40,397 nt of DNA from assembly GCA_017450705.1 (NCBI GenBank), contig JAFSTC010000033.1, forward strand, positions 1 to 40,397, written 5' to 3'. The stretch is from Lentisphaeria bacterium. Its GTDB lineage: Bacteria > Verrucomicrobiota > Lentisphaeria > Victivallales > Victivallaceae. The translations under genes were made by a program, and so were the position numbers. The notes under the pieces were generated by a model. It had not been told where the DNA came from. It did not search any database and was given only the letters and a program-made list of their open reading frames with translations. Of the stretch, positions 18,653 through 22,214 are shown in pieces. How positions within the stretch are numbered: the stretch's first letter is position 1; every line of letters begins with the position of its first letter.

Positions 18653-20767
18653 TTATTTCTCATCCATCTCCTTGAGCGCCGCCTTGCGGCTCAGGCGGAT
18701 CTTGCCGGCGCTGTCGATGTCGATGACCTTGACGGTGACGTAGTCCCCTTCATTGCAGATGTCGGTGACCTTGTTCACGCGGTAGTCCGCCATTTCGGAG
18801 ATGTGCAGGAGCCCGTCCATTCCGGGAAGGATCTCGACGAAGGCGCCGAAATCACGGAGCGTGACGACCTTGCCGCGGTAGATCTTGCCGACTTCGGCCT
18901 CCGCGGTGCAGGCGAGGACCCGCTCCTTGGCCGCATCGAGCTTGCTCTTGTTGGTGGCCATGATCTTGACCTCGCCGGAGTCGTCCACGTCGATGGAGGC
19001 TCCCGTCTCCTCGGTGATGGAGCGGATGTTTTTGCCGCCGGGACCGATGAGCGCGCCGATCTTGTCGGGGTTGATCTTGACGACTTCCAGCCGCGGTGCC
19101 CGCTCGCTGATCTCCGCGCGGGGAGCCGGGATGCAGGCCTCGATCACGTCGAGAATTTTGAGACGGGCGATGCGGTTGCGCTCCATGGCCTCGCAGAGCA
19201 GGTCGATGGGGATGCCCGGCAGCTTGAGGTCGAGCTGAAACCCGGTGATGCCGGTGCGCGTTCCGCAGACCTTGAAGTCCATGTCGCCGAAGTGGTCCTC
19301 GGCGCCGAGGATATCGGTGAGGAGCAGTCTCTCGCCGTTGTCGCCCGTGACCAGGCCGCAGGAGATCCCCGCGACGGGAGCGGTGATGGGCACGCCGGCA
19401 TCCATCAGCGCGAGGGTCGCGCCGCAGACGCTGGCCATGGAGGTGGAGCCGTTGGAGCTCATGATCTCCGAGACGCAGCGGACCACGTAGGGGAAATCCG
19501 CCGGAACGACCTTGGAAACGGAACGCTCCGCCAAGTTGCCGTGGCCGATCTCACGCCGTCCGGGACCGGTGATGCGGCCCACTTCGCCGACGCTGAAGTT
19601 GGGGAAGTTGTAGTGCAGATAGAAGCGCTTGAGACCGATCCCGGTCTCGCTGTTGAGATCGTCGTACTCCTGCGCATCCTTGTCGCTGCCCAGCGTGGCG
19701 ATGACGAGGGCCTGGGTCTCGCCGCGGGAGAAGAGCGCGCTGCCGTGGACCACGGGCAGGACGCCGACTTCGGCGGAAAGCGGACGGATGTCGGTGATGG
19801 AGCGTCCGTCGGGACGGAACTGCTTTTCGAGGATGATCTTGCGGGTGATGGTCCGCACGTAGTCGTCGAACCCCTTGGCGGTCTCCAGCGCGAAGTCCGT
19901 GTCGCTCATGTCGGCGAACCGGCCGCGCAAGGCGGTACGCAGTTCGGTGAGCAGCGCGTTGAGCGCGTTGTTCCGGTCCTCTTTGCCGGGAACGGTGCAG
20001 ACGGTCTCGATGGTGGGCGCGCAGAAGTTTTCAAGTGCGGTCTGCAGCGCTTCGGGAACGAGATAGAGCTTGTAGTCCTTCTTGGGGCGGCCGGCCTTGC
20101 GGGCCAGCTCGATCTGGGCCTCGCACTGTTTCTTGACGGCTTCATTGGCGAAATACATCGCCTTGCGCATATCCTCTTCGCTGACGAACTGGGCTTCACC
20201 TTCGATCATGATGACCTGGTCGGGACGGCCGGCGTAGATCAGTTCGAGGGAGCTTTTCTTCATCTCCTCGCGGGTGGGGTTGACGATGAACTTGTCGTCG
20301 ATCTTGCCCACGCGGACCGCGCCGATGGGGCCGTCGAAGGGCAGGTCGGAGAGCATGAGGCTCACGCTGGCGCCCAGCATGGCCAGCACGTCCGCGTCAT
20401 TGACGCCGTCGGTGCTGAGCATGACGCTCTGGATCTGCACCTCATTGAAGAACCCCTTGGGGAAGAGCGGACGGATGGGGCGGTCGATCATGCGGCAGGT
20501 CAGGATCTCCTTGGTGGAGGGGCGGCCTTCGCGCTTGATGTAGCCGCCGGGGAATTTCCCGGCCGCACTGTACTTTTCGCGGTAGTCGACCTGAAGCGGG
20601 AAGAAATCCGTTCCTTCCCGGGGTTCGCCGGAACAGGCGGCGGCGAGGACCACCGTGTCGCCCATGCGGACGAGACAGCTGCCGTTGGCAAGTTTCGCGA
20701 CTTTGCCGGTGGAGATCTCCATGCTCCGGCTGTCGTCGATGAGAAAATTGACCTTCTCTTCTGACAT
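18653..20767 (-). CDS. pnp: Polynucleotide phosphorylase
   Basis: The 704-residue product is full length. Domain order is RNase PH 1 (about 10-145), an all-helical linker, RNase PH 2 (about 310-550) with GRREIGHGNLAERS and the catalytic-site segment around SNGSTSMASVCG, a KH domain (IGPGGKNIRSITEETG, around residue 565) and a C-terminal S1 domain (RGKVVTLRDFGAFVEILPG). It degrades RNA 3' to 5' using phosphate. The start follows GAAAGGA. The gene has its own promoter and a leader of about 230 nt with a likely regulatory switch. rpsO, its usual upstream partner in many bacteria, is absent here. Confidence 0.98.
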   Translation of the reverse strand: MSEEKVNFLIDDSRSMEISTGKVAKLANGSCLVRMGDTVVLAAACSGEPREGTDFFPLQVDYREKYSAAGKFPGGYIKREGRPSTKEILTCRMIDRPIRPLFPKGFFNEVQIQSVMLSTDGVNDADVLAMLGASVSLMLSDLPFDGPIGAVRVGKIDDKFIVNPTREEMKKSSLELIYAGRPDQVIMIEGEAQFVSEEDMRKAMYFANEAVKKQCEAQIELARKAGRPKKDYKLYLVPEALQTALENFCAPTIETVCTVPGKEDRNNALNALLTELRTALRGRFADMSDTDFALETAKGFDDYVRTITRKIILEKQFRPDGRSITDIRPLSAEVGVLPVVHGSALFSRGETQALVIATLGSDKDAQEYDDLNSETGIGLKRFYLHYNFPNFSVGEVGRITGPGRREIGHGNLAERSVSKVVPADFPYVVRCVSEIMSSNGSTSMASVCGATLALMDAGVPITAPVAGISCGLVTGDNGERLLLTDILGAEDHFGDMDFKVCGTRTGITGFQLDLKLPGIPIDLLCEAMERNRIARLKILDVIEACIPAPRAEISERAPRLEVVKINPDKIGALIGPGGKNIRSITEETGASIDVDDSGEVKIMATNKSKLDAAKERVLACTAEAEVGKIYRGKVVTLRDFGAFVEILPGMDGLLHISEMADYRVNKVTDICNEGDYVTVKVIDIDSAGKIRLSRKAALKEMDEK

Positions 20768-20772
20768 GATAT

Positions 20773-20975
20773 TCCTTTCGGTTTATTTGATTTCCCTGAA
20801 AGGATCAGTCATCCGCGCCGGATCCCGCCGTGCGCCTCTCTCCGGAAGAAACGAAACTTCAAGAGAGACCCGCGGAATCCCGGTATCGGTTCCCCGAAAC
20901 GCTCCGGGAGCCCGATAGCGACCGAATTCCACGCGGCGGAGCGGAAAACGTGCGCCTTGAACGACTGATCCTTTC
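20773..20975 (-). promoter_or_regulatory. pnp leader with mutually exclusive pairing around the Shine-Dalgarno
   Basis: Element A (20963-20975) lies about 20 nt after the predicted transcription start and is a perfect 13-nt complement of element B (20798-20810). Seven bases of B (20798-20804) also pair perfectly with element C (20773-20779), which is the pnp Shine-Dalgarno GAAAGGA, 5 nt from the ATG. A:B pairing would free the ribosome site; loss of A would let B cover it. The 152 nt between A and B contain GC-rich short hairpins and no convincing gene. Confidence 0.6.
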
Positions 20976-21001
20976 CTGTCGAAAATACAATCTTGACGTA
21001 T

Positions 21002-21030
21002 AATGTAGCTCCATTCCGGCTTTTTTTCAA
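21002..21030 (-). promoter_or_regulatory. Promoter for pnp
   Basis: On the minus strand TTGAAA (21025-21030), 17 bp, TACATT (21002-21007). It sits between the nagA stop (21069) and pnp, so pnp can be expressed apart from the ROK-nagA operon. Confidence 0.6.
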
Positions 21031-21068
21031 GCCCGGGATGTCCCTTTTTATCCGTTTTTCGCTGTTTT

Positions 21069-22214
21069 TCAGAGACAGCGCGTTCCGTCGATGAAGACCT
21101 GCCGGACCTTGAATTCGTCCGAAAGCAGGACGAGATCGGCGGTGTATCCCGGTTCGATCTTGCCCAGTCCCTCGAGTTTGTGTTCCCTTGCCGCGTTGAA
21201 GGAGGTCGTTTTGACCAGTTCAGACAGGGGCAGTCCCGTGACTGAGGCGACGTTTTTCAGCGCGTCGCAGATGGCGAGGGTGCTGCCCGCCAGCGCGCCG
21301 TTGGAGCTCAGGCGGGCCGCGCCGTTCTGAACGGTCACGGGCAGACCGCCCAGCGTGTAGCTGCCGTCGGGCATCCCCGCCGCGCGCATGGCGTCGGAGA
21401 TCAGCATGACGTGATCGCAGTCCTTGACCTGGAATATCAGCTTGACCATCGGGGCGGAGACGTGGATCAGGTCGCAGATCAGTTCCGTCACCGTGTCGCT
21501 CAGCAGCAGCCCCGCGCCGACCATGCCGATATCCCGGTGGTGGAGCGGCGTCATCTGGTTGCAGAAATGGGTCATGTGGCGCAGGCCCCGGTCATAGGCG
21601 GCTTTGAATTCCTGAAACTTCGCCGCCGTGTGCGCGCCGGAGGGAACGATCCCTGCGGCGATCATCTGCGCCGCGAACTCGGGGCCGTTACCGCACTCGG
21701 GGGCGTAGGAGATGCGTTTGACAGGGTAGATGGCGTTCAGCCGCCCGACCAGAGACGCATCCGGTTCCCGGACGAAATCGGGATTCTGCGCGCCGAGACA
21801 TTTGGGATTGATGAAAGGTCCCTCCAGGTGGATCCCGGGGACCTTTGCCCCCGTACGGTGCCGCGCGTATTCCTTCGCCTGAGCGCAGGTCGAGGCCAGA
21901 TCCGACTCGGGAAGCGTGAGGGTCGTGGCGAAGACGGAGGTGACGCCCTCGGCCACCTTGGCTTTCGCAACTTTTTCAAGGGATCCCGGTTCGGGATCGC
22001 TGAAGTCCGCCCCGGCCTTGCCGTGACAGTGGACGTCGATGAAACCCGGCAGGAGCATGCCGCCCGCCGCGTCGACCGTTTCCGCATCCCGGGGAAGGGC
22101 CGCGTTTTGGTTCAGGACGGCTTCGATCTTGCCGCCGGCGATCAGAACGCTGCCGGGACGGTCGACGCCGGGAGAGATGATCCGGGCATTTTCGATGAGG
22201 AGTTTTTCAGCCAT
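21069..22214 (-). CDS. nagA: N-acetylglucosamine-6-phosphate deacetylase
   Basis: A 381-residue amidohydrolase. Visible marks are DVHCHGKAGADF near the N-terminus, the NagA signature HLEGPFINP with its metal-binding Glu (around residue 131), a GAHTAA segment, THFCNQMTPLHHRD, and the catalytic Asp in LISDAMRAAGMPDG. It removes acetate from GlcNAc-6-phosphate during amino-sugar breakdown and cell-wall recycling. It lies 16 nt after the ROK-like kinase gene, so the pair probably phosphorylates and then deacetylates GlcNAc. No nagB is visible in the window; the glmS product pool could be the exit route (inference). Confidence 0.94.
   Translation of the reverse strand: MAEKLLIENARIISPGVDRPGSVLIAGGKIEAVLNQNAALPRDAETVDAAGGMLLPGFIDVHCHGKAGADFSDPEPGSLEKVAKAKVAEGVTSVFATTLTLPESDLASTCAQAKEYARHRTGAKVPGIHLEGPFINPKCLGAQNPDFVREPDASLVGRLNAIYPVKRISYAPECGNGPEFAAQMIAAGIVPSGAHTAAKFQEFKAAYDRGLRHMTHFCNQMTPLHHRDIGMVGAGLLLSDTVTELICDLIHVSAPMVKLIFQVKDCDHVMLISDAMRAAGMPDGSYTLGGLPVTVQNGAARLSSNGALAGSTLAICDALKNVASVTGLPLSELVKTTSFNAAREHKLEGLGKIEPGYTADLVLLSDEFKVRQVFIDGTRCL

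Follow-up and report, generated by a model that had tools for sequence, protein, structure and literature searches.

How is pnp, the gene for polynucleotide phosphorylase (PNPase), controlled in the class Lentisphaeria? The question is raised by the leader of a pnp gene in a contig of 40,397 nucleotides (nt) from a Lentisphaeria bacterium (GenBank assembly GCA_017450705.1, contig JAFSTC010000033.1), the whole of which we call the window. This pnp is an open reading frame of 704 amino acids on the minus strand (18653..20767), as are all leader features given below; its name rests on the initial annotation and on KH and S1 motifs visible in its translation, which served as tblastn query. We interpret its leader as a cis-acting RNA device common to the class, probably serving autogenous control by PNPase, and give this interpretation an even chance of being right. 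A narrower version, in which the 5' strand of the leader is a decoy of the ribosome site and its digestion by PNPase is the signal read by a class-wide autoregulatory RNA, is put forward tentatively.

When the leader was searched against 100 related genomes, only one full-length match came back, in relative G005 at 79% identity. In twenty further genomes only part of the leader matched, in most cases a 60-nt core, and PNPase is encoded directly downstream at nearly all of these loci; one (L019) ends before the gene, and another (L025) lacks the hairpin and is probably a chance match. The core, with 28 invariant columns across 20 sequences, is a hairpin (20872..20932) formed by a lower stem GUGGAAU:AUUCCGC, an internal loop that is asymmetric, with 2-6 nt on its 5' strand and 2 nt on its 3' strand, an upper stem of 9 bp, and a variable tip. 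The lower stem is nearly invariant, its second pair being U-G in 76 of 85 rows, and the upper stem varies on both sides at seven of its nine pairs. Stem columns are paired in 94.8% of cells and covary with a score of 0.188 against 0.085 when shuffled (0/500), a signal that is lost when partner columns are slid. At one upper-stem pair (columns 18-122), 48 of 85 rows have a mismatch, mostly C-C or U-C; an alternative CGG:CCG register is available in 44 of the 50 sequences carrying that mismatch; judging from these alignments, the internal loop may adopt two registers. The distal CGG:CCG register was rejected for modelling because it shows no compensation, whereas the adjacent 9-bp register does. 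The initial annotation had proposed a switch built from two complementary elements, A and B, and the ribosome site; it missed this class-wide hairpin between A and B, which is the best-supported part of the leader. The tip is greatly expanded, with both stems kept, in seven loci (L021, L172, L173, L174, L175, L176, and L177).

Matches to hairpin model R1 were found in 94 of the 388 genomes of the phylum, and in all 94 loci showing both hairpin and gene the two share a strand, with the hairpin 45 to 437 nt ahead of the pnp start. The exceptions are weak: a match in G347, outside the class (30 bits, by R1 alone, in a locus lacking pnp), and two second matches in G051, all taken as chance. By eye, the hairpin was visible in 17 of the 19 class pnp leaders that R1 missed, some of them long-tipped and some diverged, and was not seen in the remaining two (L185 and L188). 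Model R2, built on 88 sequences in the compensating register and applied at E up to 1e-4, detected 104 genomes, every one in Lentisphaeria. When 84,980 genomes were scanned for the exact pattern, 53 stretches came back, 50 with pnp downstream and three ending within 210 nt; the titles of their records give the source as Lentisphaerota or one of its members, as Kiritimatiellota (three cases), or as an unnamed bacterium. The hairpin is also carried by a cultured species, Victivallis vadensis. A mobile repeat was ruled out, since strong matches occur one per genome and before pnp. In nearly every pnp leader of the class that was examined, a covarying hairpin precedes pnp; it occurs about once per genome and is confined to the class.

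The sequences around the hairpin were compared in 66 leaders with a recognisable promoter, taking the 5' flank from the predicted start to the hairpin and the 3' flank from the hairpin to the start codon; the resulting pairing and accessibility figures rest on predicted starts and predicted folds. In 65 leaders, promoter-like sites, mostly with TATATT, put the predicted start 23-103 nt ahead of the hairpin. The two flanks are expected to form 26.7 pairs with each other compared with 13.7 in dinucleotide shuffles, and the excess holds by genus (24 of 26 genera, p = 6e-7). When the 5' flank is removed, the ribosome site becomes less accessible by 0.072 on average, compared with -0.007 in shuffles (p = 1.3e-5), with a drop of more than 0.05 in 30 of the 66 leaders. 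The excess drop is seen in 21 of 26 genera (p = 0.002) and persists over the 64 leaders left when the window and G005 are omitted (p = 6e-5). In these predictions the architecture is kept class-wide, with a 5' strand that pairs around the central hairpin to the 3' flank and whose loss lowers accessibility of the ribosome site.

The window's own leader displays the sharpest form of this arrangement. Element A (20975-20963; GAAAGGATCAGTC, also given as GAAAGGAUCAGUC) is the 5' strand of the closing helix, and element B (20795..20814, core 20810-20798, GACTGATCCTTTC) can partner either A or the ribosome site, which we term element C (20762..20781, with the Shine-Dalgarno (SD) sequence GAAAGGA at 20779-20773 and the start codon at 20767-20765). 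Direct reading of the minus strand bears out the 13-nt perfect inverted repeat of A and B, separated by 152 nt, on which the initial annotation was founded. No repeat of this length appeared in 400 dinucleotide shuffles of the 228-nt leader, where the maximum was 12, reached once. TCCTTTC within B is complementary to the SD, as had also been noted. B is able to pair with either partner because A imitates the ribosome site with small gaps (GAAAGGA-UCA-GUC versus GAAAGGA-AUA-UCA-U-GUC). A promoter-like site, TTGAAA-17-TACATT (21030-21002; one found versus 0.1 expected), predicts a transcription start near 20995, so that A would fall within the transcript and near its 5' end, in agreement with the earlier placement. 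Two other uses of this region were considered and rejected: a leader peptide after A, as no ATG, GTG, or TTG lies within reach of the SD-like part of A, and a transcription attenuator, as no terminator-like site is present in 20700-21100.

Folding the transcript from 20995 to 20740 gave one large structure of -112.3 kcal/mol (z = -5.8), whose minimum-energy form is closed by an A:B helix of 17 bp (20975-20959 with 20814-20798). Without the 5' part, B is predicted to cover the SD and start codon through 16 bp (20811-20795 with 20781-20762) in the segments GG:CC, UCCUUUC:GAAAGGA, UGA:UCA, and UGAC:GUCA, a longer pairing than the seven SD bases first claimed. The duplex energies are -20.2 kcal/mol for A:B and -15.4 kcal/mol for B:C. 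In both the window and G005, the 3' flank is predicted to form about 15 pairs with the ribosome site when the 5' flank is absent and about 0.35 when it is present. This predicted swing of about 14.5 pairs compares with 2.0 and 1.0 in shuffles and was matched in 0/200 of them for each species. The mutual exclusion of A:B and B:SD pairing that had been proposed from reading alone is thus supported in silico, and the folds support the exact three-element exchange in two species, the window's and G005.

G005, whose PNPase is 97-98% identical to that of the window, also allows the elements to be compared with their surroundings. A and B together are identical at 25 of 26 positions (A 12/13, B core 13/13), while the remaining leader, hairpin and SD excluded, is identical at 86 of 130 (66%; Fisher p = 0.0008). 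The one difference lies in A, where a C-G pair becomes U-G. G005 carries TTGAAA-17-TATATT at the same place as the window's promoter-like site. A second hairpin seen in the window fold (20837..20869, CUCUCUUGAAG...CUUCCGGAGAGAG) is replaced in G005 by a hairpin of different sequence. By this comparison the two elements are constrained between these close species. The initial annotation had named conservation and covariation in relatives as its tests. On conservation the outcome goes partly against it: the sequences of A and B are kept in G005 and were not found beyond it, though the architecture is kept class-wide. For covariation in A:B and B:C the comparison covered two sequences, with the one changed pair.

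Controls of this kind are known elsewhere. RNase III/PNPase autocontrol through the Escherichia coli pnp leader was reportedly described by Jarrige in 2001. The E. coli logic is that RNase III cuts and PNPase then removes one strand. The strand removal by PNPase that we propose after an RNase III cut mirrors that logic, and the proposed output differs in that B would directly cover the ribosome site. The large leader structure, considered as an E. coli-type trait, is present in the window (the fold z-score above) and class-wide, with flank pairing above shuffles in 62 of 66 leaders; a position of pnp downstream of rpsO is absent from the window, and no sequence relation between the E. coli and Lentisphaeria leaders was found. 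pnp is autoregulated in both E. coli and Streptomyces coelicolor, where RNase III cuts a hairpin before the gene (PMC3997798, PMC10126417). The S. coelicolor rpsO-pnp hairpin has an internal loop, is cut by RNase III, and is part of pnp autoregulation (PMC10126417). A hairpin with an internal loop thus stands ahead of pnp in both groups; however, the S. coelicolor loop is 4/4 rather than asymmetric (2-6/2), its hairpin acts on transcript stability, and its pnp is in an operon with rpsO, which is not so in the window.

No Rfam 15 family reached gathering score in the window or in the loci of 20 relatives, one tRNA excepted, and searching the window leader against Rfam at E up to 10 returned two chance-level matches, neither of them Actino-pnp (RF01688). 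Actino-pnp is a short conserved cis-regulatory RNA of about 60 positions in the pnp leader of one bacterial group (PMC2864571). The likeness is that both are short conserved pnp-leader RNAs confined to one bacterial group; the differences are the taxon, Actinomycetales, and a consensus (accGGUCCUCGGUA...AUCGAaGACCggu) unlike the Lentisphaeria sequence. The Lentisphaeria leader thus shares its location and does not reach its covariance-model score: the best hit of that model in the window's own genome was 14.9 bits, elsewhere than the leader, with a cut-off of 47.7. A literature search for a Lentisphaerota pnp RNA returned a single paper, PMC2864571, in which those terms concern other motifs. 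Our best reading is a new pnp-leader RNA, analogous to Actino-pnp and the E. coli element and a member of neither. With it, a poorly studied class gains a conserved RNA before pnp that Rfam release 15 does not contain, to stand beside the enterobacterial and actinobacterial pnp-leader elements. As no sequence relation to these was seen, control of pnp via a leader duplex is suggested to have arisen more than once.

In the mechanism that we propose, an endonuclease, most likely RNase III, would cut in or near the hairpin and leave a new 3' end; an RNase III gene is present in the window's genome. The 5' fragment would stay held by A:B and the lower stem. Abundant PNPase would then degrade this fragment, including A, from the new 3' end, and the freed B would cover the ribosome site and lower pnp translation; with scarce PNPase the A:B duplex would persist and pnp would be translated. 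Cleavage, removal of A, and autoregulation are argued here by analogy with E. coli and S. coelicolor. This scheme takes a sharp and testable form in the window lineage, where strand removal would switch translation off directly.

Several observations weigh against this interpretation. The A and B sequences were not found beyond G005 among the relatives, which leaves two species, and the only A:B pair that differs between them is a C-G to U-G change. Class-wide, the mean accessibility drop is modest (0.055 by genus), and in 7 of 66 leaders removing the 5' flank has the opposite effect, a rise of more than 0.05. Across the leaders, pairing with the 5' flank is no more frequent than average among the 3'-flank bases covering the ribosome site (same-strand overlap 0.36, baseline 0.32, p = 0.38); in the two members of the window lineage that overlap reaches 0.91 and 0.84. 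Predicted folds thus support a general trend in the class and a clear exclusive switch limited to the window lineage. The near-invariant lower stem suggests, as a sequence pattern, that a specific protein also reads the hairpin, and together with the C-C or U-C mismatch it suggests recognition that RNase III cleavage alone would not explain. The support as a whole is computational, by comparison and folding.

The alternative that survives best is that the hairpin and flanking helix are an RNase III/PNPase control site acting via mRNA decay, with B:SD pairing a side effect or a quirk of the lineage. The class-wide distribution of the hairpin, not shared by the A and B sequences, speaks for this account, and cleavage of the Streptomyces rpsO-pnp hairpin works through transcript stability (PMC10126417). 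Nonetheless, accessibility of the ribosome site changes significantly when tested by genus, and there is constraint on A and B between the two close species; we consider decay control on its own a plausible but rather unlikely explanation. We judge it unlikely that the hairpin is instead a protein-binding site (for the KH/S1 domains of PNPase, ribosomal protein S15, or another regulator) through which pnp is controlled directly without cleavage. Its lower stem, U-G pair, and asymmetric loop are more sequence-specific than a generic RNase III site, but protein binding alone does not explain the flank-to-flank helix. A role for S15 is further weakened by the window's pnp not being beside rpsO and by U-A in place of the U-G pair in some relatives, including several with rpsO upstream.

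Two long competing helices, A:B and B:C, could also form a temperature (cold-shock) switch that exchanges pairings without a nuclease, and PNPase is a cold-shock protein in E. coli. Yet A:B is the more stable helix and A is transcribed first, so B:C would not be expected by temperature alone without loss of A, and the covarying hairpin would be left unexplained; we regard such a switch as very improbable. Chance complementarity in a GC-rich leader would fit the presence of the A and B sequences in two species only, but is hardly credible given the 0/400 shuffles with a 13-nt repeat, the 0/200 with the swing in either species, and the fact that A and B are better conserved than the remaining leader (p = 0.0008).

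The genes around the leader vary. Upstream of pnp in the window is a nagA-like gene (21069-22214). By reading, an S15-like C-terminus (rpsO) lies ahead of the hairpin or pnp in six loci (L182, L184, L186, L187, L188, and L190). In two others, a tRNA-Glu (UUC) gene stands just upstream of the pnp hairpin, after promoter-like sequence (L014, 1602-1677 on the minus strand; L020, 1382-1457 on the plus strand); in these loci the leader of pnp could thus receive its 5' end from tRNA processing.
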